A stretch of DNA of 64,000 bases from Sphingobacteriaceae bacterium. GTDB taxonomy: Bacteria > Bacteroidota > Bacteroidia > B-17B0 > Aurantibacillaceae. The stretch spans positions 2,790,001 through 2,854,000 of the forward strand of contig NVQB01000001.1 of NCBI GenBank assembly GCA_002319075.1. Reading direction: 5' to 3'. Position numbers and translations under genes: made by a program. Of this stretch, positions 6,902-18,836 are shown one piece after another (within the stretch, counting starts at the first letter, position 1; each line of letters starts with the position of its first letter). Under the pieces are notes generated by a model. The model saw nothing but the letters and a program-made list of their open reading frames with translations. It did not search any database and had not been told where the DNA came from.

Positions 6902-6918
6902 AGTGCAGGCATGTCTCT

Positions 6919-6980
6919 ACCGAGAGAAAAATCATTCTGCCTCAAAAAATTTTAAAATATCAAAATTTATTTTATGTTTG
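6919..6980 (+). promoter_or_regulatory. Two-box promoter of small RNA copy 1
   Basis: Box A (ACCGAGAGAAAA) begins at 6919, box B (GCCTCAAAAAATTTT) at 6939 and the -7 element TATGTTTG at 6973. The 20-bp and 34-bp offsets are identical in all six promoters of this type in the window. Expected start site is near the GGG at 6986-6988. Confidence 0.85.
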
Positions 6981-6986
6981 ACTTAG

Positions 6987-7067
6987 GGTTTTACACACAC
7001 AAAACCTAAGCGTTATGTTGGGTAATCGCTTAAAGTAAAAAGCGCTGATTCGTTCAGCGCTTTTTTT
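6987..7067 (+). ncRNA. Small structured RNA, copy 1 of 4
   Basis: About 81 nt from the predicted start to the end of a T-tract. Hairpin 1: a stem of 6982-6992 with 7001-7010 around an ACACACAC loop. Hairpin 2: 7009-7030, whose loop contains UUGGG; in this copy the stem re-pairs with one bulged C. Hairpin 3: AGCGCTGA (7041-7048) with TCAGCGCT (7054-7061) followed by seven T, a strong intrinsic terminator. No open reading frame of note is on this strand. It is preceded by its own promoter. The ends are predicted, and the biological role is unknown. Confidence 0.8.
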
Positions 7068-7095
7068 ATGCTTTGAAGCGACCAAAAAATCATTC

Positions 7096-7157
7096 GCCGC
7101 AAAACAGTGCCATCTACCGCAAAAATTTTTATTCCCTGTATTCACGTAGTACATTTG
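7096..7157 (+). promoter_or_regulatory. Two-box promoter of small RNA copy 2
   Basis: Box A GCCGCAAAAC at 7096, box B ACCGCAAAAATTTTT at 7116, -7 element TACATTTG at 7150. Offsets are 20 and 34 bp. The two boxes here are near-identical direct repeats, which makes the repeat nature clearest at this copy. Confidence 0.87.
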
Positions 7158-7161
7158 ATCC

Positions 7162-7250
7162 GGGTCATAACACACACACGTTATCACCCGAGCGGTTTGT
7201 TGGGTAATCGCTTTTCTTAAAAAGCGCGGTTTGGGTTCCGCGCTTTTTTT
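7162..7250 (+). ncRNA. Small structured RNA, copy 2 of 4
   Basis: About 89 nt. Hairpin 1 pairs 7161-7171 with 7180-7190: an 11-bp stem with one C-C mismatch and the loop ACACACAC. Hairpin 2 is AGCGGTT / AATCGCT (7191-7212) with a G-U pair and the loop TGTTGGGT. Hairpin 3 is AAAGCGCGG (7221-7229) with CCGCGCTTT (7238-7246), loop TTTGGGTT, followed by a T-tract. This is the best-paired copy. It is followed by the opposite-strand gene at 7378-7971. Confidence 0.85.
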
Positions 7251-7982: not shown

Positions 7983-8397
7983 CCTGGAAATTGAACGAAA
8001 AATTTGACGAATGAGTAAGAGTGTATTGACCTCTGAGGGAAGGTGTATGAGAAGCTGAGTGAATGGATGTGTTTTATATTAAAAGACGGGATATGTACGG
8101 GGTAAGTAGGGAGTATTGTGCAAGGAACCAGGGAGTTGGTATAAGGCTGGTGAATTTTACGCCACTCCTTTTGGGCCTGAGCCCTTTTAGTTCGGTCAAA
8201 CAAACGTCTGAATTAATTAAATAGGCTTTCGCAACACACCTGTTAACTGTGAGCTAAAGTGAAGCTAATTTAGGACAGAGTAGCACGACTAATCTCTCAT
8301 AGTTTAACTGTGAGTGTGGGAAAGCAAAACACTCCAATTCTTTTGATACGCCCGTGGCGCAGCCAAATCAGTGATAAAAAGCTCAACTAGTTGACTC
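7983..8397. other. Gene-free stretch between small RNA array halves
   Basis: About 415 bp. Short frames on both strands lack protein-like composition. AACTGTGAG occurs twice, near 8245 and 8305. I find no fifth small-RNA copy, no transposon end and no tRNA-like sequence. Nothing firm can be called. Confidence 0.5.
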
Positions 8398-8459
8398 ACC
8401 TCAATTAATCAGCGTCAGCCGCAATTATTTTAATTTCAAGTGTTGTCATTTTATCTTTG
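8398..8459 (+). promoter_or_regulatory. Two-box promoter of small RNA copy 3
   Basis: Box A ACCTCAATTAATC at 8398, box B GCCGCAATTATTTT at 8418, -7 element TATCTTTG at 8452. Offsets are exactly 20 and 34 bp. The two boxes share CAATTA, a paired change from the CAAAAA of other copies that supports a direct repeat read by a dimer. Confidence 0.87.
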
Positions 8460-8464
8460 ATGCA

Positions 8465-8538
8465 GGTTTTATATAAGAACCTAGCGGTTTGTTGGGTAAT
8501 CGCTTTTAAGAAGCGCGGATTGGGTACCGCGCTTTTTT
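8465..8538 (+). ncRNA. Small structured RNA, copy 3 of 4
   Basis: About 74 nt. Hairpin 1 is AGGTTTT (8464-8470) paired with GAACCT and neighbouring bases (8476-8482), loop ATATA. Hairpin 2 is AGCGGTT / AATCGCT (8483-8504), identical to copy 2. Hairpin 3 is AAGCGCGG (8511-8518) with CCGCGCTT (8527-8534), loop ATTGGGTA, followed by T. The hairpin-1 stem sequence differs completely from copies 1 and 2 but still pairs. Confidence 0.85.
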
Positions 8539-8703
8539 CTTTCTTAAAATTTTCAAAAATTTCTTTTGCTTATCATTCTTCGGAAAGTCACTCTTATGCG
8601 GGGTAAGGATTCACGCAAACTTTGAAAAATTTTTCAAAAGCCTTGGTAACATTTCCCAACTTCTTGCCATTTGGCCTCGAAATTTTGACGAAATAAAAAA
8701 TTG

Positions 8704-8765
8704 ACCGATTAAAATTGCTTTTTGCCTCAAAAAGTTTTTTGTTTTCCTAAAACGTTTTAAATTTG
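8704..8765 (+). promoter_or_regulatory. Two-box promoter of small RNA copy 4
   Basis: Box A ACCGATTAAAA at 8704, box B GCCTCAAAAAGTTTT at 8724, -7 element TAAATTTG at 8758, with the same 20 and 34 bp offsets. A further GCCTCGAAATTTT lies at 8674, 30 bp before box A; it is out of register and may be a relic. Confidence 0.85.
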
Positions 8766-8769
8766 TTCA

Positions 8770-8848
8770 GGCTAATCTAACTAAACAGCCGAGCGATTTT
8801 TTGGGTAATCGCTTTTTGAAAAGTGCGGTTTTGGGTACCGCACTTTTT
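8770..8848 (+). ncRNA. Small structured RNA, copy 4 of 4
   Basis: About 79 nt. Hairpin 1 is short: GGCT (8770-8773) with AGCC (8787-8790). Hairpin 2 is AGCGATT / AATCGCT (8792-8813), where A-U replaces the G-U pair of copies 2 and 3. Hairpin 3 is AAGTGCGG (8821-8828) with CCGCACTT (8838-8845); the G-C to U-A swap relative to copies 2 and 3 is a compensatory change. A T-tract follows. These changes indicate selection on RNA structure. Confidence 0.83.
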
Positions 8849-8850
8849 CT

Positions 8851-9176
8851 TTTTTATCTCATTACTAATTTTCGGATTTTTTTTAAGCAGGCATTTGCTC
8901 GTTTTAGCAAGAGTGTTCCTTGGTTTTCTATTTCCTTACTTAGGAATTTCGTGTAATATTTTTACTTTAGAAACGGGAAAGGCTTTAATGTCTTGTTGGT
9001 TGCCTTTGATGCTAAAATTAAGGCGGTAACATATTTTTTATAAAATGTAGTTGTAGTTCTTAAAAGAAAATACTGAATTTTTTTATGTGTGAATATGCGT
9101 CACACCCTTGATCTTCTTTGATAAAAATCAAGAATTTTTCAGCTATTCTTTTTCATTGCAATGAGAAATTTATCCC
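8851..9176. other. Intergenic region before the receiver/hybrid-kinase operon
   Basis: About 325 bp without a credible gene. A 68-codon hydrophobic frame (8823-9029) begins inside the copy-4 terminator and is rejected. Two inverted repeats are visible: GTGTGA/TCACAC at 9088-9093 and 9101-9106, and CTTGAT/ATCAAG around 9108-9133. Either could be an operator or part of a leader; I cannot choose. Confidence 0.4.
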
Positions 9177-9238
9177 ACCTCGAAATCATCGGATTCACCT
9201 TATAAAATTGGTCATTATCATGTGCGAACCTAATTTTG
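9177..9238 (+). promoter_or_regulatory. Two-box promoter of the receiver/hybrid-kinase operon
   Basis: Box A ACCTCGAAATC at 9177, box B ACCTTATAAAATT at 9197, -7 element TAATTTTG at 9231. Offsets are again exactly 20 and 34 bp, so this protein operon shares its promoter type with the four small RNAs. The predicted start near 9245 leaves a leader of about 47 nt before the ATG at 9292. Confidence 0.83.
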
Positions 9239-9291: not shown

Positions 9292-9822
9292 ATGAACAAA
9301 GATCAAATTAGTATATTTATTGTAGACGACGACAAGATTCTTTCAACCGTTCTTAAAAACGAAATTCGCCGGAGTTTTCCGGAAGAAAATATGATGATTT
9401 ATATTTTTGAAGCAGGCGAAATTTGCCAGTCGTTTATGCAGAATAAACCCGATATTGCTATTGTAGATTACCATATGAACAGTCGCTATAAAGATGCCAT
9501 AAACGGAATTGCCGTAATTGATATTTTCAAAAAGGAGAGTCCGGATACTAATGTGATTCTTTTTACCAAAGAAGAGAATATGACTTTAGCGATGGAAGCC
9601 TTTGATCACGGTGCCCATGACTACGTTGTAAAAAACGAATTTATGTTCCGGAGATTGCATGTTGCATTGGTGCAATGTTTACGCCTCAAAAGAATAAAAC
9701 AGGATCTTAGCCGCCAGAGAAAGCGCGGAAAGATAGCTGTTTACCTGATGACTCTTCTTTTGGCCTGCGCCATGGTTTTGCAATTTGTTGTGCCTGGATT
9801 TTTATTAAGTAAATCAGTTTGA
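9292..9822 (+). CDS. Receiver domain with C-terminal membrane helix
   Basis: 176 residues. Residues 1-130 are a CheY-like receiver: acidic cluster VDDD, phosphoacceptor Asp in IAIVDYHMN, Thr in ILFTKEE, and Lys in HDYVVKNE. A basic segment RLKRIKQDLSRQRKRGK follows, then one membrane helix of about 25 residues (IAVYLMTLLLACAMVLQF onward). Most single-domain receivers are soluble, so membrane tethering by the C-terminus is unusual. It could hold phosphoryl groups close to the membrane kinase encoded two genes downstream. First gene of an operon with the next two, 20 bp before the next ATG. No output domain is present, so it is a relay or sink, not a transcription factor. Confidence 0.9.
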   Translation: MNKDQISIFIVDDDKILSTVLKNEIRRSFPEENMMIYIFEAGEICQSFMQNKPDIAIVDYHMNSRYKDAINGIAVIDIFKKESPDTNVILFTKEENMTLAMEAFDHGAHDYVVKNEFMFRRLHVALVQCLRLKRIKQDLSRQRKRGKIAVYLMTLLLACAMVLQFVVPGFLLSKSV

Positions 9823-9842
9823 AGTTTAAAACCCCAAGTACT

Positions 9843-10217
9843 ATGAATACCCTTATAATTGACGATGATCTGTTCCTTAAAAAAGCGCTGAGTTTCAATT
9901 TGCTTGACTTAGGGCATGTTGTGGCAGTTGCAGGCGATGGACAAGAAGCCATTCAGATGATTGAAAAAAATCAGAATTTCGATCTTATTTTTTGCGATGT
10001 GATGATGCCGGTGCTAACAGGACCGGCGTTTTTGCTTATGCTTAAAAAATATTTTCCAAAAAATATGCCTTGCATTGTTATTATCTCAGGAGTAAAAGAA
10101 GGGGAAGAATTCTTGAAAAAAACAGATATTCAATACGATTATTTTGTAAAAAAGCCAATTGATATGCCCGCGCTTAGGAAGCTTATTGGAGAAATAAGTA
10201 ATTCCAAACAAAGCTAA
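9843..10217 (+). CDS. Single-domain response regulator receiver
   Basis: 124 residues from ATG 9843; an in-frame TTG at 9819 would overlap the previous gene and adds no family sequence. The receiver is complete: LIIDDD, phosphoacceptor Asp in IFCDVMMP, Ser in VIISGVK, and Lys in YFVKKPIDMP. There is no DNA-binding or enzymatic output, so it probably shuttles phosphate within a relay. It lies between the membrane-anchored receiver and the hybrid kinase (stop 11 bp before the kinase ATG) and is surely co-transcribed with them. Confidence 0.92.
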   Translation: MNTLIIDDDLFLKKALSFNLLDLGHVVAVAGDGQEAIQMIEKNQNFDLIFCDVMMPVLTGPAFLLMLKKYFPKNMPCIVIISGVKEGEEFLKKTDIQYDYFVKKPIDMPALRKLIGEISNSKQS

Positions 10218-10228
10218 GTTCTTAAAAA

Positions 10229-12448
10229 ATGCGATCGGGATTAAGACCATACACAAAGCTTGTTATTATTTTTAGTTTCGTTATAAGTGCGGGATTAGTA
10301 TTGTTTATTGCGGTAAACGCTAACAGGCATTTGTCGGTTATGTCGGGCAACACCACCGACCTGAACAATGCTTACAGGGTTTTGGAACTTTTAGAAGTTT
10401 TAACAAGCGATGTAAATATCATTGACGCAAAACAGAACGCTTACCTCCGCACGAGTGATCCTCAAATTTTGAATGCACTCAACATAAAAGAAACTGAGGT
10501 AAAATCGAATTTGAAAAGCATCGGCAAGTATTTTTCGGGCAGAGCAGAGGAGGAAAAATTCTATCTCTTAAAAGAACTTACCTTCAAAAAACTTCAGTAT
10601 ACTAAGGATCTCGCAGGATCGAATAATTCAGCTACTCTAAGGACTAAACGAAAAGCGGCAATGGTGGATCTGGGTACAAAAAATACCTTGAACGAAATCA
10701 GTACCCTGATGCATGAAATCGATAGTAGCCTTAGTTACACTACACAGAGCCTAATTGACAGGAACGTTAATTCAGTGAAGGTTTCCAGAAATTGGGGAAT
10801 ACTTGAAGTAGTGCTGGGAGTTATTGTTTTATTTGTGTCGCTCCTTCTTCTATTAAGGGATTTAAATATTCGTAACAAATTGGAAGCTGAACTTCTCATC
10901 GCAAAAAATCAGGCGGATGATAATTCTATGATGCAGGAACAGTTTATGGCGAATATGAGTCATGAGATTCGGACACCGATGAATGCTATTCTTGGTTTTG
11001 CAGATCTTCTGCAAAAGACGAATCTCGATAGAAAGCAGTCGGAATACATTTCAGCCATTCGTGCCAGCGGATCTAATCTACTGAATATAGTGAACGATAT
11101 TCTTGATTTTTCGAAAATTGAAGCGGGGAAACTAACCATTGAAAAAATTGCTTTTAATTTAGAGAGCCTCATCGGTTCTCTGAGAATTATGTTTTCGGAA
11201 AAGGCGCGACAAAAAAACATACAGTTTGAAGTTAGTATGGATAGTAATTTACCGGAGATGATTTTCGGAGATCCAACACGTTTAACACAAATTCTCGTGA
11301 ACCTGATCAATAACGCCATCAAATTTACCGATGTTGGCGTAGTAAAAATAAGTTGCGAATTAAAAAGTATTGAGCATGATATGGCTCAGGTTGTTTTTCG
11401 TGTCAAAGATACCGGTATCGGCATTCCACAAGATAAATTGGATATTATTTTTGAGCGTTTTAACCAGGGAAATAGAGAAACAACGCGACGCTATGGAGGA
11501 ACTGGCCTGGGACTTTCGATCGTGAGGGATCTTGTGGAATTACAAAATGGAGAGATCCGTGTAAAAAGCAAACAAAATTCGGGCTCAGAATTTATCGTTA
11601 CCCTTAGTTACCCTATTTCTTATGAGACACATATAAAAATTACGGATAATTCTCACACACGATTTCCATCCTTGTCGGGAAAAAACTTAAGTGTGCTTCT
11701 TGTTGAAGACAATGAACTTAATCAGAAACTTGCAAGATCGTATTTGCAGGGCTTTGGATTAGAGGTAGATTTGGCTGAAAATGGCGCGGTAGCTATAGAA
11801 AAATTGCAGGAGAAAAAATTTGACCTTGTGCTTATGGATATTCAAATGCCTGTTTTGGATGGTTACAACGCAGCCCAAAAAATCCGCTACGAGCTTCAAA
11901 TGGATATTCCGATCATTGCTATGACAGCCCATATTATGAGTGGCGAAAAGGAAAAATGCATCAGCTATGGCATGAACGATTATATTTCGAAACCATTTAA
12001 AGAAGCAGATCTTTATGAAATTGTATCCTCTTTTCTGAAAATAGAAAAACAGGTGGAAACAAAACCGCCCCTTGTTGAAACAAGTATTAGAACACATGCA
12101 GGGGTAGTAGACTTTAAAGACATTGAAGACATGTCTCGCGGTAATAGATCTTTTATCATAGAAATGATCACCCTGTTTTTAGAAAAAAACCCTTTGGATA
12201 TTGCAGAAGTAGATGCCGCAATAAAAACCAGGGATCTTAGCGCAGTACGCGCGATATCTCACCGCATGAAAACATCTGTAGGGTTTATGGGACTTAAGCA
12301 TCTGGGTAAGATTTTAGGTGAAATGGAGATAAAAGCAGAAACGGATGGCGAGATCAAGGAAATTTCAAGCCTTTTCAACAAGGTAGTAGCAGATTGTAAA
12401 AAAGCCAGGAGTGAATTTGAAATCGCTCTGGAAACTACTTATAAATAG
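10229..12448 (+). CDS. Hybrid sensor histidine kinase with receiver and Hpt domains
   Basis: 739 residues. Two membrane helices (about 10-30 and 188-208) flank a 155-residue periplasmic helical sensor resembling a CHASE3-type domain. Then come HisKA with His245 in MSHEIRTPMNAILGF, HATPase with the DTGIGIP and YGGTGLGLSI boxes, a receiver with Asp537 in LVLMDIQMP, and a C-terminal Hpt domain with His678 in AISHRMKTSVGFM. All four phosphorelay sites (His-Asp-His plus a partner Asp) can thus be present in this operon. The free receivers upstream and the LytTR regulator downstream are obvious phosphate acceptors. Its signal is unknown. The operon promoter is of the two-box type. Confidence 0.95.
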   Translation: MRSGLRPYTKLVIIFSFVISAGLVLFIAVNANRHLSVMSGNTTDLNNAYRVLELLEVLTSDVNIIDAKQNAYLRTSDPQILNALNIKETEVKSNLKSIGKYFSGRAEEEKFYLLKELTFKKLQYTKDLAGSNNSATLRTKRKAAMVDLGTKNTLNEISTLMHEIDSSLSYTTQSLIDRNVNSVKVSRNWGILEVVLGVIVLFVSLLLLLRDLNIRNKLEAELLIAKNQADDNSMMQEQFMANMSHEIRTPMNAILGFADLLQKTNLDRKQSEYISAIRASGSNLLNIVNDILDFSKIEAGKLTIEKIAFNLESLIGSLRIMFSEKARQKNIQFEVSMDSNLPEMIFGDPTRLTQILVNLINNAIKFTDVGVVKISCELKSIEHDMAQVVFRVKDTGIGIPQDKLDIIFERFNQGNRETTRRYGGTGLGLSIVRDLVELQNGEIRVKSKQNSGSEFIVTLSYPISYETHIKITDNSHTRFPSLSGKNLSVLLVEDNELNQKLARSYLQGFGLEVDLAENGAVAIEKLQEKKFDLVLMDIQMPVLDGYNAAQKIRYELQMDIPIIAMTAHIMSGEKEKCISYGMNDYISKPFKEADLYEIVSSFLKIEKQVETKPPLVETSIRTHAGVVDFKDIEDMSRGNRSFIIEMITLFLEKNPLDIAEVDAAIKTRDLSAVRAISHRMKTSVGFMGLKHLGKILGEMEIKAETDGEIKEISSLFNKVVADCKKARSEFEIALETTYK

Positions 12449-12680
12449 GCGGTAATTTTTTAACGTCTTCTTAAGCGCCTTCAAATGTTGCTCACTCAGG
12501 TAACTGCAGACGTTTATACACATTTATGCTCAGGATATATATTTTCTTAGAAAACTATTGCTTATCTTGATTACGCAAAGCGAACACAGCGGCTGAAAGC
12601 ATGTTTTAAGGAAATGAGTTTATGCGTTGCATTTTCCGAATTTTTTTTGCAAGTTTAAAAACACAGTTTAAACATTAACT

Positions 12681-13376
12681 ATGATAAAAGCAGTAGCCAT
12701 AGATGACGAGTCAATTGCATTAAAAGTTATTGAGAACTTTTGCAAAGACATTGATTTTATTAGTCTTGAAAAAACTTTCAGTGAAGCAAAGGAAGGTTTA
12801 AAGTACCTGAATAAATTTCCGGTAGACCTTCTGTTTCTGGATATTGACATGCCTTTGATGAATGGTATAGATCTTTATAAACAACTGAAACAAGATACTA
12901 TGGTTATTTTTATTACTGCTCGTGCAGATTATGCTGTGGAAGGCTTTAATTTAATGGCAGTGGATTATTTACTGAAACCTTTTTCTTACGATAGATTTTT
13001 GCAGGCTACCAAACGTGCAAACGATCTTTTAAATTTTAATACCCAAAGCGAAAAAGCTGAGGACTCTAAATTTTTATATATCCGTGCCGATTTCAGTCTT
13101 ATCAAAGTTGCTATTGCCGATATTATTTACATAGAAGCGCTTGATGATTATTTGAAGATTTATATCCAGGATCAAAAAACGCTTGTGGCAAGGATGACTA
13201 TGAAAGCCATTCTTGAAAAGCTCCCCTCTTCTAAATTTATCAGGGTACACCGCTCGTTTATAGTGGCTGTAGACCGCATTCAGGCGCTCCGTTCAAAGAC
13301 AGTACTTGTTGACCGCATTGAAATTCCAATGGGTGGAAGTTATATTGAAGAAGTAAATAAGGTTTTCCAAAAATAA
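12681..13376 (+). CDS. LytTR-family response regulator
   Basis: 231 residues: an N-terminal receiver (DDES acidic cluster, phosphoacceptor Asp in LLFLDIDMP, Thr in IFITARADYA, Lys in YLLKPFSY) and a C-terminal LytTR DNA-binding domain (IYIEALDDYLKIY, FIRVHRSFIVAV). LytTR proteins bind direct repeats spaced about two helical turns. It follows the hybrid-kinase operon by 232 bp with no promoter of the two-box type visible. It is the best candidate to read the RCCK double boxes at the four small-RNA genes, the operon and the LytTR-only gene. No LytS-type sensor kinase is adjacent, so its kinase is inferred to be the hybrid kinase upstream. Confidence 0.95.
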   Translation: MIKAVAIDDESIALKVIENFCKDIDFISLEKTFSEAKEGLKYLNKFPVDLLFLDIDMPLMNGIDLYKQLKQDTMVIFITARADYAVEGFNLMAVDYLLKPFSYDRFLQATKRANDLLNFNTQSEKAEDSKFLYIRADFSLIKVAIADIIYIEALDDYLKIYIQDQKTLVARMTMKAILEKLPSSKFIRVHRSFIVAVDRIQALRSKTVLVDRIEIPMGGSYIEEVNKVFQK

Positions 13377-13380
13377 ATTG

Positions 13381-13442
13381 ACCTCAAAAAGTGGAATTAG
13401 GCCGCATTTAATTCCCTTCTTTTTGCTTTAATTTTATATTTA
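13381..13442 (+). promoter_or_regulatory. Two-box promoter of the LytTR-only gene
   Basis: Box A ACCTCAAAAAGTGG begins at 13381, just 5 bp after the stop of the LytTR response regulator; box B GCCGCATTTAATT begins at 13401; TATATTTA at 13435 is a -7 element with A for the last G. Offsets are 20 and 34 bp. It implies feedback control of a LytTR protein. Confidence 0.82.
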
Positions 13443-13463
13443 GTCGCTTCCATCAACACACAC

Positions 13464-13787
13464 ATGAAAGAAGACTTTTTATTTATTAATTCTCAAAAGA
13501 AACTGCATAAAGTCAATGTGGGTTCTATTAGCTTTATTCAGGCTATGGACGATTACATAAAAATTCATTTTAAAGATTCTAAGTCCATTGTTACCCGCAT
13601 GACTATGAAAGTAATACTCGAACAATTAGACAGCGACGAGTTTATTCGTGTTCACCGGTCTTTTATTGTTCCGGTAAAAAACATTGAAGCAATGGGTGTA
13701 AAGAACATTCTTGTAAATGGGAATGAAATTGCGCTGGGTAAAAATTATGCTGGCGAGGTTAAAGAGCGTTTTAAAGAATACAAGTAA
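13464..13787 (+). CDS. Stand-alone LytTR DNA-binding protein
   Basis: 107 residues consisting only of a LytTR domain (SFIQAMDDYIKIHF, VTRMTMKVILEQL, FIRVHRSFIVPV). There is no receiver domain and no upstream in-frame remnant of one. It closely resembles the DNA-binding half of the response regulator 87 bp upstream, including the shared stretch RMTMK(A/V)ILE, so it probably arose by partial duplication. Its start is preceded by ACACACACATG. Its own promoter carries the RCCK double boxes. A LytTR domain lacking phosphorylation control could act as a competitor, a constitutive activator or a dimer partner. Confidence 0.93.
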   Translation: MKEDFLFINSQKKLHKVNVGSISFIQAMDDYIKIHFKDSKSIVTRMTMKVILEQLDSDEFIRVHRSFIVPVKNIEAMGVKNILVNGNEIALGKNYAGEVKERFKEYK

Positions 13788-13968
13788 ATAATTCTTTCCC
13801 TCACAAAAATTTCTCTTACATACATAACCATTTTCAGAGCTTGCTCAGTTGAAAGGGTCTCTTCAAAATTTCAAGCACTTAAATCTGTAAATCGGTAAAA
13901 AATATACCCAATGTACGGTATTTTATAGTGGAGGTCCTCTCGCTAAATTGATGGCCTAAAACGGGGAC

Positions 13969-16900
13969 ATGAAAAAAATCATCTGGGTATCTTTTTTTAT
14001 TTGCAATTTTGTTTTTTCTCAGGCGCAGGAGTATAAAAAAATGCAAGATGCTGCCGCCAAAGCGTGCGAAGAAGGCGACTTCAAAAATGCCATTGAGCTT
14101 TCAGAATCGGCGATACACGCTGCTACCAGAGACAAGAAAACCAATGTAGATGACTTATATTCTTTGCGATCTGAGAATGCGGCCTACTATCTTTTAAGCG
14201 AGCAGGTTGAGAAAGGACTGAGTTTATTTGCTGGTTTAACAGAAGAAGTAGGTACTGGAAAATATCCCATTGCAGAAATGAATCTAAACCAGAACTATGG
14301 GATCGCTCTTGTTTTTTTAGGTCTCTATAGTGATGCCTTACCCCTTCTGGAAAAAGCCCACGGGTTAAGTAAGACGCAAAAAATGAAAACCAAAGATCTG
14401 GTGTCATGCCTGGGTTCGCTTGCTGTATGTTACCAGTATCAGTACGATTTTTTAAAATCAGAAGCTATTTTTAAGGAAGCGGAGTTAGTTTGTGAAAGAG
14501 ATAATTTGATGAATACGGCAGATTATGCTGCTCTTGAAAGTAATTTTGCGCTGCTGTATCGCGACATGCAAATTCCAATCAGTGCTAATGAGTGTTATCT
14601 GAAGGCAGAGAAAACTTTTACAAGATCAAAAGATACTTTGAATCCTCAATATCCTGTTTTTTTATTGGATTACGGATCAATGCTTGCGGACGCCAACCAG
14701 TTTGAGAAAGCACTAAGTCTGTCTTACAGGGCAAAAAACATAGATAAAAAGCTTTACACAGAGAATTCAAATGCTTATGCAGCCGACCTGAATAATCTGG
14801 GCTACATTTATGCCCGCATGAATAAAATTGTGGAGACTGAACAGTTTTACATACAGTCTTTAAAGATCAAAAAAGAATTGCCTTTTGTGAGATTAGACAG
14901 CTACCTCACTACTTTAAGTAATTTAATGGTTTTTTATTCTAACATGGGAAGAGATGAGGAAGCTGTTGGATTTGTTAAGGAGCTGGAGGATGGGTTAAGG
15001 AATAAAGAGCTCACTGATACTTTGAAGCGCGCTACTTTCGCGAATAATCTTGGTATCCAGTTTAAAAACCGGGGAGATATTCTCAAATCTATATACTATT
15101 TTAAAGAGGCTTTAAGGTATTATGAAGCCATTTATGGTAAGGATAATTTGTTTATGGCTGAGGTGTACATAGACATGGGAACAGCTTTTTTTGCGGTGGA
15201 TAATTTTAAAGAGACATCCGACTACCTGAATAAAGCCGCCGATATTTATTCAAAAACCAAAGTGGAAGATAATGTGAATACCATTGGGATGTTTTGCAAT
15301 CTCGCCATTATTTTAAAAGAAGTAAATAAAGTTAAGGAAGCCAATACATACATAAACAAAGCTCTTGACCTCACAAAAAAATTCAATGTTAAACAAGCAG
15401 ATATTTTAGAGCAGGTTTATATTAGTAAAGCTGAGATTGCTGCCGAGCTGCACGATGTGAAGATTTCAACGGATTATTTTAATAAATACCTCGAATTAAA
15501 ATATGCGCAGATCGAAGAAAATTTCAGCTATATGACGGAAAATGAAAAAATGTTTTTCCTTGAAGAGTTTGAACATAATATCAAGAATTTTTATACGATG
15601 ATCTTAAGTGAAATTGAAAAGTACCCCGAGCTTATTAAGGCTTTGCTGGATTTTCGTTTGAAGACAAAAGCAATGTTACTCAATAATCTTTCTAAGATCA
15701 AACAAAGCATCATTGATTTGAACGATCCTCTTCTGAACCAAAAATTTGATGATCTTAAATTAAAACGTGAAACAGTTGCCAAGCTGCTGAGTTTTAACAC
15801 CGAAGATTATCCCAATGCACTATCTGAAGCCTCTGCTTTAAAGGCTGAAGCCGATTTAATGGAAAAAGAAATTTCATTAAAAGTGAGCGGAACTTTCTCA
15901 GGAGATGCAACGAAAAAAAGTGACTGGAAGACCATTCAAAAATTATTAAGTCCGGGAGAAGCTGCCATTGAGATCTTTCAATGTTACCTGGTTTACAATA
16001 ATAATCAGGGTAAGGGAACCAATTACACTTACATTGTTATTAAGCCAACGGGAGAACCTTTTGCTCTTACAATAGATCGCCCCATTAGCTGGGAAGATGA
16101 AGTGCTTAATCTTTACAGAAACAGCATTGACTTTAAGAAAACAGAGCCTGATCTCTATCGTCGTCTCTGGAAATTTGTAGATGAAAAATTAGCCGATACC
16201 AAAACTGTTTACATATCACCGGATGGCATTTATAATCAACTCAATCTGAATACAATTTACAATGACGAAAAAAAGCAGTATCTGATCGAAGAAAAAGAAG
16301 TTCATTTACTTACTACTTTGAATGATCTACAAAATGTAAAATCCTCAACTTTTAGGAAGCCGAGTAACGCGGTGCTGGTGGGAGATCCAAAGTTTGATTA
16401 CGATATCACAAAATTAAATGTTCCCAAAAAAGAAAAAGAGGTTTCGCTGGCTGTTGCTTCGCGGGGGGCTTTTGGTTTTGCTCTGGCTGAATTGCCGGGA
16501 ACAAAAGTAGAAGTGGAAGTGATCAAGACTATTTTTGACAAGAATAACGTGAGTTGCAAATTATTGATGGAAGAAGCGGCTAATGAGCGTGATGTCAAAA
16601 AAATTAAAAGTCCTGATGTTCTTCATCTTGCTACGCATGGTTTTTTTCTTGAAGATCCAAAGGAAGAAGACCTGGCAGCTTATGATAAACTGGAAAAAGA
16701 GTTTTATAAAAACCCGATGGTGCGTTCTGGTATTTTTTTTAGTGGAGCCAATAAAGATTACGCTCTTAATACTTCGAATGCATCCTCCATTACCGATTTT
16801 GAAGATGGGATGCTCACTTCATACGAAGCTATGAACTTGAGTCTTGATAAAACAGAACTTGTAGTGTTAAGTGCTTGTCAAACGGGTTTAGGAAAAGTAA

Positions 16901-17139
16901 AAAACGGGGAAGGGGTTTATGGTTTGCAAAGGGCGTTTAAGCTAGCCGGAGCTAAATCCATTATTATGAGTCTTTGGCCGGTGAGCGACGATGCTACAAA
17001 GGATCTTATGATTGCGTTTTACGATCATTGGATTAAGAACGGAGATATGTACCAGGCATTTAAAGTAGCACAGCTGGAGGTTAAGAAAAAATACCTGGAG
17101 CCCTATTATTGGGGGGCCTTTATTCTTGTGGGCAAATAA
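13969..17139 (+). CDS. Secreted TPR-CHAT caspase-like protein
   Basis: 1056 residues. A signal peptide (first about 20 residues, ending FVFSQAQ) directs export. Residues about 20-500 are tetratricopeptide repeats with NN/LG and YY patterns, followed by a helical linker. Residues about 660-1056 are a CHAT domain with the catalytic dyad His890 in LHLATHGFF and Cys970 in LSACQTGLG, and the C-terminal IIMSLWPVSDDAT. CHAT domains are caspase-like cysteine peptidases; a periplasmic or surface version with TPR targeting is common in Bacteroidota but poorly studied. Both catalytic residues are intact. It follows the LytTR-only gene and precedes an OmpA-type gene by about 90 bp. Confidence 0.93.
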   Translation: MKKIIWVSFFICNFVFSQAQEYKKMQDAAAKACEEGDFKNAIELSESAIHAATRDKKTNVDDLYSLRSENAAYYLLSEQVEKGLSLFAGLTEEVGTGKYPIAEMNLNQNYGIALVFLGLYSDALPLLEKAHGLSKTQKMKTKDLVSCLGSLAVCYQYQYDFLKSEAIFKEAELVCERDNLMNTADYAALESNFALLYRDMQIPISANECYLKAEKTFTRSKDTLNPQYPVFLLDYGSMLADANQFEKALSLSYRAKNIDKKLYTENSNAYAADLNNLGYIYARMNKIVETEQFYIQSLKIKKELPFVRLDSYLTTLSNLMVFYSNMGRDEEAVGFVKELEDGLRNKELTDTLKRATFANNLGIQFKNRGDILKSIYYFKEALRYYEAIYGKDNLFMAEVYIDMGTAFFAVDNFKETSDYLNKAADIYSKTKVEDNVNTIGMFCNLAIILKEVNKVKEANTYINKALDLTKKFNVKQADILEQVYISKAEIAAELHDVKISTDYFNKYLELKYAQIEENFSYMTENEKMFFLEEFEHNIKNFYTMILSEIEKYPELIKALLDFRLKTKAMLLNNLSKIKQSIIDLNDPLLNQKFDDLKLKRETVAKLLSFNTEDYPNALSEASALKAEADLMEKEISLKVSGTFSGDATKKSDWKTIQKLLSPGEAAIEIFQCYLVYNNNQGKGTNYTYIVIKPTGEPFALTIDRPISWEDEVLNLYRNSIDFKKTEPDLYRRLWKFVDEKLADTKTVYISPDGIYNQLNLNTIYNDEKKQYLIEEKEVHLLTTLNDLQNVKSSTFRKPSNAVLVGDPKFDYDITKLNVPKKEKEVSLAVASRGAFGFALAELPGTKVEVEVIKTIFDKNNVSCKLLMEEAANERDVKKIKSPDVLHLATHGFFLEDPKEEDLAAYDKLEKEFYKNPMVRSGIFFSGANKDYALNTSNASSITDFEDGMLTSYEAMNLSLDKTELVVLSACQTGLGKVKNGEGVYGLQRAFKLAGAKSIIMSLWPVSDDATKDLMIAFYDHWIKNGDMYQAFKVAQLEVKKKYLEPYYWGAFILVGK

Positions 17140-17231
17140 TATACGTGTTTCACGGTAGTGCGAATACCCAGCAGCGGGTATTTGCAGAGTTGATTGGCTG
17201 TTTAATATTTGTATATCTAAACCACACACAC

Positions 17232-18836
17232 ATGAAGCCACTCTTACCTGCGTTGTTATTAACGATATCTACCTTTACTCAGGCGCAAACCGGTACACAT
17301 ACCGAAGTCACTAAAACGGTACTTGAAAATCTCGGCACGAATGTAAATTCAAGTTCGGGGGAGTTATTACCGGTAATTACAGCTGATGGAAGTACGCTTT
17401 ATTTTGTACGCGATGGTCATTACGATAACTTCTCAAGCCAGGACGTATGGTATTGTACACGGGAAGGTTCGGGCTGGTCGAAGGCTATTCATCCGAAAGC
17501 ACCTATTAACCATTCTGGTAAAAATTCGAACGTTTCAAATGTCTCTACAGACGGAAATCAGTTGTTGGTTCGTGGCGCCTTTGAGGATGGGGAGTTTGAG
17601 GGTTCAGGACTTTCCATCATTACAAAAAATAAAAAAGGTGAATGGAAAGATCCAAAAAAACTAGAGATCGCAAATTTCAAAAAATATGCAGATGCGGGTT
17701 CTTATAATAACTCCTTTCTGGCGCCCAATGGAAAAACATTGATTTATGCTTTTTCTGACAGAAGCAATGGAAATAAACATGATCTCTATTTCAGCCATCT
17801 GATCTTAAAAGACAACTGGAGTAAACCAAAATCTATAAAAGACTTTACAAAGTTTGTTGGTAAAGCTTTAAACAACAATACATGGACAGAACCTCAGAAA
17901 ATAACTGTTTTAAGTAATAGAGATTACAATGAATTCGGACCCTTTATGGCGGCTGATGGGGTTACACTTTATTATTCAACAAATAAACCTGGTGGATTCG
18001 GTGATCAGGATATCTGGATGACCAAACGATTAGATGATACCTGGCAAAACTGGTCGGAGCCCATTAATCTGGGAGCCAGCATAAACAGCGACGATTGGGA
18101 TGCCTATTATTGCCTGGACGCCAGGGGAGAAGAAGCTTACATGGTGTCGAGCAAAGGAACCGGAAACAGTGATATCGTAAAAGTGAAATTGGTAAAAGAG
18201 ATGCGTCCTAACCCGGTTATTTTAATAAAAGGCAAAGTATTTAATGCTAAAACAAAAGAACCCATTGGTGCAAGCATAGAATACGAAACCCTCATCGATG
18301 GAAAGAATGTGGGTGTTGCTCAATCGAACCCGCAAACCGGTGAATATAAAATTATTTTACCCTATGGAAAAAACTATGGATTTATGGCCTATGCCGATAA
18401 GCATGCTTCGGTTTCCGACAATTTTGATTTAACTACGGTGGCCGAATATAAAGAGATTGTTCGTGATCTTTATTTAGTACCTATGGAAGTGGGAACTACC
18501 ATTCGTTTGAATAATATCTTTTTTGACGTCGCCAAAGCCACATTGCGTCCGGAGTCCTATTCAGAATTAGACAGGCTTGCGGGTTTAATGACGCAAAACA
18601 GCAAAATGCAAATAGAACTTTCAGGTCACACGGATAACGTAGGTGGTGCTGAGGCCAACTTAAGCCTTTCTTCCGACCGTGCCAAAGCCGTTACGGATTA
18701 CTTAATAAGTCTGGGAATTGCTACTGATCGTATTGTGGTGAAAGGATATGGCGAAACTAAACCTTTAACATCTAACGATACCGAGGAAGGTAAACAATTA
18801 AACAGGCGTGTGGAGTTTACGATCCTTAAGAACTAG
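17232..18836 (+). CDS. OmpA-family protein with PD40 propeller
   Basis: 534 residues from ATG 17232; the longer frame from 17109 lacks a signal sequence and overlaps the upstream gene. A signal peptide (LLTISTFTQAQ) is followed by PD40/WD40-like beta-propeller repeats (GSTLYFVRDGHYDNFS, GVTLYYSTNKPGGFG, DIWMTKR), a CNA-B or carboxypeptidase-regulatory-like beta-sandwich (LIKGKVFNAKTKEPIGASI), and a C-terminal OmpA peptidoglycan-binding domain (IELSGHTDNVGGAEANL, LSSDRAKAV, NRRVEF). It probably spans from outer membrane to peptidoglycan or is anchored in the periplasm. The start is preceded by CCACACACAC. Confidence 0.94.
   Translation: MKPLLPALLLTISTFTQAQTGTHTEVTKTVLENLGTNVNSSSGELLPVITADGSTLYFVRDGHYDNFSSQDVWYCTREGSGWSKAIHPKAPINHSGKNSNVSNVSTDGNQLLVRGAFEDGEFEGSGLSIITKNKKGEWKDPKKLEIANFKKYADAGSYNNSFLAPNGKTLIYAFSDRSNGNKHDLYFSHLILKDNWSKPKSIKDFTKFVGKALNNNTWTEPQKITVLSNRDYNEFGPFMAADGVTLYYSTNKPGGFGDQDIWMTKRLDDTWQNWSEPINLGASINSDDWDAYYCLDARGEEAYMVSSKGTGNSDIVKVKLVKEMRPNPVILIKGKVFNAKTKEPIGASIEYETLIDGKNVGVAQSNPQTGEYKIILPYGKNYGFMAYADKHASVSDNFDLTTVAEYKEIVRDLYLVPMEVGTTIRLNNIFFDVAKATLRPESYSELDRLAGLMTQNSKMQIELSGHTDNVGGAEANLSLSSDRAKAVTDYLISLGIATDRIVVKGYGETKPLTSNDTEEGKQLNRRVEFTILKN

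Follow-up and report, generated by a model that had tools for sequence, protein, structure and literature searches.

About 7 kb of the analysed window (the whole 64,000-nucleotide stretch of DNA) holds an entire putative regulatory circuit: a sensor, a response regulator, a solo relative of that regulator, an operator of fixed geometry and four candidate sRNAs whose output would be measurable. All parts of this putative circuit lie on the forward strand. Two receiver-domain proteins (9292–9822 and 9819–10217, from open reading frames and Pfam) precede a hybrid histidine kinase with HisKA, HATPase_c, receiver and C-terminal Hpt domains (10229–12448, from Pfam and synteny). The kinase gene ends 232 bp before the gene for NB, a 231-aa response regulator composed of a receiver and a LytTR domain (12681–13376, from Pfam and alignment). 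The gene at the centre of this study begins 87 bp past the NB stop codon and encodes a 107-aa protein with a single LytTR domain and no receiver (13464–13787), referred to below as the solo protein. By Pfam, its immediate neighbours are the response regulator upstream and a TPR-CHAT protein downstream; no membrane inhibitor gene was seen adjoining it, and no Pfam membrane domain in the TPR-CHAT protein.

The hybrid kinase is the likely input to NB, judging from synteny. In three relatives (G010, G009 and G069) the NB orthologue is preceded by a kinase homologue of 46–52% identity, with three or four genes in between, the G010 homologue being represented by its C-terminal part alone on the contig. 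The genome encodes 24 LytS-type kinases (PF06580), none of them in the window. In the same three relatives (L118, L119 and L120, from G010, G069 and G009 respectively), the kinase and the NB orthologue flank genes for an ATP-grasp-like, a decarboxylase-like and a 716–722-aa protein, with a fourth gene in G010 and G009 (names assigned by eye), and this block is absent from the window. We considered whether it represents a target operon that has moved, and set the idea aside: the decarboxylase-like gene of G010 has just a 25% relative elsewhere in the genome of the window.

A LytTR domain without a receiver

The reading frame of the solo protein runs from ATG to stop over 13464–13787, within a whole open frame of 128 codons. 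Its only Pfam domain is LytTR, as the earlier note on this DNA had claimed (PF04397, residues 12–103, profile positions 1–97 of 98), with a score of 64.7 bits against a curated cut-off of 22.6. The AlphaFold2 model, built from an alignment of 14 sequences, has a LytTR fold with a mean pLDDT of 90.6, and its top PDB matches are all LytTR domains: Bacillus cereus 3d6w (E 1.9e-6), AgrA (8.2e-6) and ComE. Score and fold together identify the protein as a member of the LytTR family and, with no N-terminal receiver found by Pfam, it is not a LytTR response regulator. AgrA and ComE, response regulators of LytTR type whose structures are solved, have the fold and the recognition motif in common with it, but carry the receiver that it lacks.

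The FhRhHRS motif is present as FIRVHRS at residues 60–66. When a column is counted as conserved if 8 or more of 10 clade regulators have the same residue, the solo protein keeps 13 of 14 in residues 48–70 and 15 of 20 in residues 21–47, with 4 of 11 in residues 1–20 and 6 of 11 in residues 71–107; the first strand region (residues 9–12) is changed. DNA contacts in AgrA are described from R198, N201 and S202 of an FhRhHRS-type motif (PMC4227749), and Tyr229 is reported to be needed for full activation, the alanine mutant being a poor activator. The solo protein has Ala90 where nine of the ten clade regulators and NB have Pro. By our own alignment register we take this to be the Tyr229 position of AgrA, and the replacement is a weak pointer towards a role as a brake. 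The nearly unchanged recognition segment, together with the association between NB's clade and a double-box promoter described below, suggests that the solo protein can quite probably bind these boxes.

The 5.65 Mb Bacteroidota genome to which the window belongs has 29 LytTR domains. NB is the best match to the solo protein among them (93.8 bits; the next LytTR domain scores 63.2), with 50 of 101 residues identical in a gap-free alignment to NB residues 131–231 (50%). The earlier note had described a close match to the upstream neighbour. This stands as the best match within the genome, and at the level of the family only, because response regulators of other genera match the solo protein equally well (50–52%) and a recent copy is thus not indicated. 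For the LytTR half of NB, identity reaches 60% in comparisons outside the genus and is 57% with the orthologue inside it; set against these values, the 50% shared with the solo protein, together with the length of the solo protein's branch, leaves a recent duplication of NB unsupported.

In an 88-row LytTR tree, which took in 28 of the genome's 29 domains (L029 was dropped, its cut-out domain being too short), the solo protein and NB fall into one 42-row clade with no further domain from their genome (support 91/79), and a 43-row tree with four further domains of that genome gives the same split (99/96). The branch leading to the solo protein is very long in both trees (1.54 and 1.72). AU tests rejected none of the pairings with NB (p 0.435), L032 (p 0.453) or L030+L033 (p 0.484); with L014, another regulator of the genome, the result was borderline (p 0.083), and the pairing with L011 was rejected at 0.05 (p 0.035). 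By its position in these trees the solo protein originates from NB's clade, and NB itself is a possible parent, compatible with the tests as one of several fits. The earlier note had gone further in deriving the protein from NB and had proposed a LytTR phylogeny as the check. What the phylogeny bears out is the common clade, of which these two are the genome's only members; direct parentage by NB is one possibility, regulators of other genomes fitting equally well and the branch being long. Elsewhere in the same genome, the LytTR domain L025 (C1:3812010–3812306) lies in a 287-codon frame whose first ATG, GTG or TTG is only 136 codons before the stop.

NB-type regulators are carried by 36 of 87 genomes of the order, its own included, at E<=1e-60. 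An orthologue of the solo protein was not found in 59 relatives, in which the matches at E<=1e-15 sit in open frames of at least 221 aa, nor among the 29 Bacteroidota loci of a contig scan, which encode regulators of 220–257 aa; the scan gave 31 loci, the other two being from Planctomycetota. A second, short LytTR gene occurs in none of 20 stretches around NB-type regulators from 19 genomes, several of which stop short at a contig end, with part of the regulator itself lost in L121. A 138-aa LytTR reading frame in L120 is a regulator cut at the end of the stretch (230-codon frame).

Double-box promoters and sibling sRNA-like genes

The promoter of the solo gene begins immediately after the NB stop codon with box 1, ATTGACCTC (13377–13385), followed 20 bp further on by the weaker box 2, TTAGGCCGC (13397–13405), both identified by pattern and matrix. 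The -7 element, of the Bacteroidota type, TATATTTA (13435–13442), lies 29 bp past box 2, is one letter off TAnnTTTG, and ends 21 nt ahead of the ATG. Four promoters of the same design head the sRNA-like genes s1 (6915–6980), s2 (7092–7157), s3 (8394–8459) and s4 (8700–8765), and a weaker one, with one mismatch to the pattern and a perfect -7 element (TAATTTTG), precedes the kinase operon (9173–9238), so that the sensor may itself be under the control of its own circuit. All six lie inside 6.5 kb.

Double repeats resembling ATTnACCTC, 21 bp apart, were first seen by eye in the leaders of NB orthologues in five genomes, and the pattern RCCKM-N15-RCCKM-N29-TAnnTTTR was set from those leaders together with the window sites at 8394, 8700, 9173 and 13377. 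It matches the window exactly five times (6919, 7096, 8398, 8704 and 13381), always on the forward strand, and not once in 100 shuffles; a sixth match with one mismatch lies at 9177 (shuffle mean 0.08). The sites at 6919 and 7096 were outside the pattern-setting set (a matrix scan had listed both), and both head sRNA-like genes. With a matrix built from the four sRNA promoters, the site at 13377 scores highest among 127,870 positions once the training sites are set aside. For the 9177 site, one other position scores higher on boxes and -7 element alone, and 15 over the full 66 bp. Both the exact pattern match and the leave-one-out matrix confirm the double boxes that the earlier note had seen before the solo gene, and this promoter belongs to the double-box set. 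The note's further claim, that the gene is self-controlled, holds as far as the presence of the boxes; the protein that binds them, whether the solo protein or NB, is only inferred.

Two further sites, at 12851 (inside NB) and 33036, appeared with a looser pattern and one substitution and were taken for chance matches. The region upstream of NB itself (12449–12680) has no box promoter, even when one substitution is allowed. Since no terminator-like site was found in 12400–14000, read-through from NB into the solo gene is possible.

A promoter model that included the six window promoters (R2) returned these six as its best hits in their own genome, the seventh being a partial hit of 16.3 bits. 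A second model (R3), for which 16 promoters were taken exclusively from other genomes, ranked the s1 promoter best in the genome (E 0.0147), with unrelated-looking sites next (0.0226 and 0.0339) and the solo promoter absent from the hits at E<=1. Within the window, R3 placed s1, s4, s3 and s2 (the last a partial hit) at ranks 1, 2, 5 and 9, and recovered the 9177 and solo promoters as partial hits only (4.2 bits at E 5 and 3.4 bits at E 10, respectively). This failure of the relatives-only model to find the solo promoter suggests that its box 2 may be weak. Pattern and R3 both identify the s1, s3 and s4 promoters, and pattern and matrix that of s2.

Box promoters occur at 15 of 52 distinct NB-clade loci and at 0 of 50 other LytTR loci (Fisher p 2e-5), or at 10 of 47 against 0 of 50 when the five loci where the box was first read are left out (p 4e-4), although relatedness among the loci makes both p values too small. 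A locus was assigned to the clade from its place in the 88-row tree or from a full-length match at E<=1e-60, and duplicates entered the count a single time. The clade count includes L054, L072 and L076, which fall in the solo protein's clade in the tree, and L055, which is near-identical to L054; the comparison set includes the remaining 27 LytTR loci of the window's own genome. This search used the spacings of the relatives (15–16 and 28–29) and slightly looser letters. The clade loci with box promoters are L035, L042, L065, L068, L069, L093, L095–L097, L099, L100, L102, L105, L106 and L110. Their box consensus, near TTTACCTC, occurs twice at an interval of 21–22 bp, and the distance to TAnnTTTG is fixed. 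Their box promoters sit before the regulator, before an upstream gene (sensor-like by eye) or past the regulator stop and ahead of another gene. The last position provides parallels for the arrangement behind NB, where the gene following the box encodes the solo protein.

The association makes the double box a candidate operator for NB's clade of response regulators across Bacteroidota, at least for the part of the clade that carries it in several genomes. R3 hits at E<=0.005 occur in 21 of 36 genomes of the order with an NB-type regulator and in 8 of 51 without; once the 13 training genomes are removed, these counts become 9 of 24 and 7 of 50, and this genome-wide co-occurrence is suggestive only. 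In the three nearest NB-orthologue regions (G010, G009 and G069a) a box promoter was not found, and allowing one substitution yielded just an unconvincing match in that of G010.

The sRNA-like genes s1 (6981–7068), s2 (7158–7250), s3 (8460–8540) and s4 (8766–8850), defined by folds and a covariance model, are 81–93 nt long and arranged in tandem, each behind its own double-box promoter. Three hairpins are predicted in s1, s2 and s3, and two in s4; the last hairpin of s1 is a terminator. All four have a TTGGGTAATCGC hairpin in common, as well as a terminator hairpin, with UUGGGU in the loop of hairpin 2 and, in s2–s4, also in the terminator loop. Their folds are more stable than those of shuffled sequences (z -5.9, -4.5, -3.4 and -3.0), with 0, 0, 1 and 4 of 200 shuffles reaching the same stability. 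In their own genome the covariance model finds exactly s1–s4 at E<=1.1e-14, the next hit being at 3e-3; weak hits L142–L145 were rejected as extra copies, as they look like ordinary gene-end terminators. Across the order, 86 additional genomes yielded a single weak hit, in a member of the same genus (G026, L147, 34.6 bits, E 4e-4). A search of Rfam with s1–s4 gave no gathering-level match, and three hits with E 0.32–0.85 fall below their gathering scores. We infer that the four RNAs are made, and that NB would control them.

A pairing of the sRNAs with the leader of the CHAT gene (TACCCAA at 13905) was discarded, as this gene ranked only 12th in a duplex scan of the window leaders. In this crude scan, the strongest pairing was between the s2 loop and the leader of an OmpA/PD40 gene (start near 17229; 17100–17250) at -17.3 kcal/mol, which is not significant alone, and the second strongest was with the leader of NB (-15.5 kcal/mol).

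Multicopy sRNA sets driven by a single response regulator have precedents in the Qrr RNAs, which are driven by LuxO, and reportedly in LhrC1–5 of Listeria under LisR, and s1–s4 resemble these in being several near-identical RNAs. FopS, a further multicopy sRNA set with 14 copies in Bacteroides thetaiotaomicron, comes from the same phylum as the host of s1–s4, but its promoters are canonical and its 5' part is single-stranded (PMC11697453). Unlike all three, s1–s4 would probably answer to a regulator of LytTR type, with a solo DNA-binding domain expressed from the same type of promoter. The four sibling sRNAs are probably more novel than the solo protein itself.

A candidate circuit and its alternatives

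We propose a circuit in which the hybrid kinase (10229–12448) would phosphorylate NB, and phosphorylated NB would bind the double boxes ahead of the -33 region, activating the four sRNA genes, the solo gene and perhaps the kinase operon. As the solo protein accumulated, it would occupy the same boxes without a phospho-controlled receiver and would weaken or shut off both the sRNAs and itself, a delayed negative feedback comparable to that of BlpS against BlpR. To this reading, in which the solo protein is a receiver-less member of NB's clade that reads the same boxes and acts as an induced brake, we give an even chance. Given binding, the analogy with BlpS makes competition somewhat more probable than activation. 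The fuller picture of a self-limiting Bacteroidota RNA circuit, in which a LytTR regulator starts four sRNAs together with the receiver-less relative that ends their burst as a pulse, is put forward tentatively, as something short of an even bet.

The closest known parallel is BlpS of Streptococcus gallolyticus (PMC8545106): a 108-aa, LytTR-only protein adjoining BlpR, part of the four-component BlpH/BlpR/GSP/BlpS system, that binds BlpR's operator and represses, by its authors' evidence through competition. The solo protein is of almost the same length (107 aa, within the same range of 100–120 aa), is likewise LytTR only, and its gene adjoins a two-component system with a receiver-LytTR regulator. 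In both cases regulator and solo protein are tied to one conserved operator, putatively so in ours. BlpS acts on bacteriocin genes, with binding and repression measured, whereas the visible regulon of the Bacteroidota protein, known from sequence alone, would be the four sRNAs, itself and perhaps the kinase operon.

The earlier note had offered a brake and a latch as alternatives, and each has a published example among receiver-less LytTR proteins (PMC8545106; PMC6193735). It is the setting shared with BlpS, an adjoining LytTR regulator (here a clade-mate), together with the lack of an LRS-type membrane gene, that favours a brake over an activator that locks itself on. The latter deserves consideration because the regulators of the LRS systems HdrRM and BrsRM, which are also receiver-less LytTR proteins, activate alone and exert positive feedback on their own operons from direct repeats just ahead of -35 (PMC6193735). 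The solo gene resembles theirs in the direct repeats that precede its promoter: these have an ACC core, start about 20–22 bp from one another and sit immediately ahead of -35/-33. This promoter suggests autoregulation. The window boxes stand upstream of the expected -33, a position comparable to that of the repeats in Table 3 of PMC6193735, and such geometry would suit an activator. The solo protein could then be an LRS-like regulator minus its membrane inhibitor, activating alone from the boxes and sustaining itself and the sRNAs, as a latch or amplifier, through positive feedback that NB had started. We consider this the main rival to the brake, though unlikely: with no membrane inhibitor gene seen beside the solo gene, the loop would run unchecked and lack a visible off-switch, Pro90 has given way to Ala, and the adjoining two-component regulator of the protein's own clade matches the setting of BlpS, not of LRS.

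Other observations weigh against the brake itself. The solo gene has its own box promoter, whereas blpS is likely cotranscribed with blpRH (PMC8545106). The relatives-only model misses this promoter, the three nearest NB-orthologue regions are without a convincing box promoter, and no orthologue has turned up to show that selection keeps the solo protein paired with NB. The long branch (1.5–1.7) could mean an altered DNA preference; with the changed first strand region and the unequal quality of the two promoter boxes, it also suits a protein that partners NB in a mixed dimer, one box each, or that binds other, diverged sites while the boxes serve only for its expression. Either would sit poorly with the 13 of 14 conserved columns kept in the recognition segment, and we regard this explanation as improbable. 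The long branch and the missing orthologue, in both the 59 relatives and the contig scan with its 29 full-length Bacteroidota regulators, would equally fit a functionless relic of a duplicated regulator, its box promoter left over from that regulator's own. Such a relic would hardly be expected to retain an intact 107-codon frame despite 50% protein divergence, a conserved recognition segment, a confidently predicted fold and a promoter with all its parts, and we think it very improbable.

Some of this is, on our comparison, already known. Solo LytTR proteins are common, accounting for 15,409 of 80,096 LytTR regulators, 1,565 of them 100–120 aa long (PMC8545106), and the competitive brake would be that of BlpS. 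Among the openly licensed papers listed by our searches, none dealt with a solo LytTR brake in Bacteroidota or with LytTR-controlled sibling sRNAs there, and as far as these searches show, three features are new: an operator in front of the solo gene itself, the occurrence in Bacteroidota and sRNAs as the output. If the proposed circuit is true, the BlpS principle was invented independently in a Gram-negative phylum and applied to sRNAs under its own operator. The worked-out cases of solo LytTR proteins that we found, BlpS and the LRS regulators, have opposite signs (PMC8545106; PMC6193735), and the present locus makes the sign of such a protein directly testable outside Firmicutes.

A search of 14 relatives revealed at least four other solo LytTR genes, in open frames of 112–128 codons. 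Two of these, in G007 (L209:3989–4327, 112 aa; L211:3980–4306, 108 aa), also lie near regulators: for one, a divergent gene pair that ends in a LytTR regulator is 58 bp away, and for the other, a divergent LytTR regulator is 282 bp away. The arrangement of a solo gene beside a regulator recurs in this genome.
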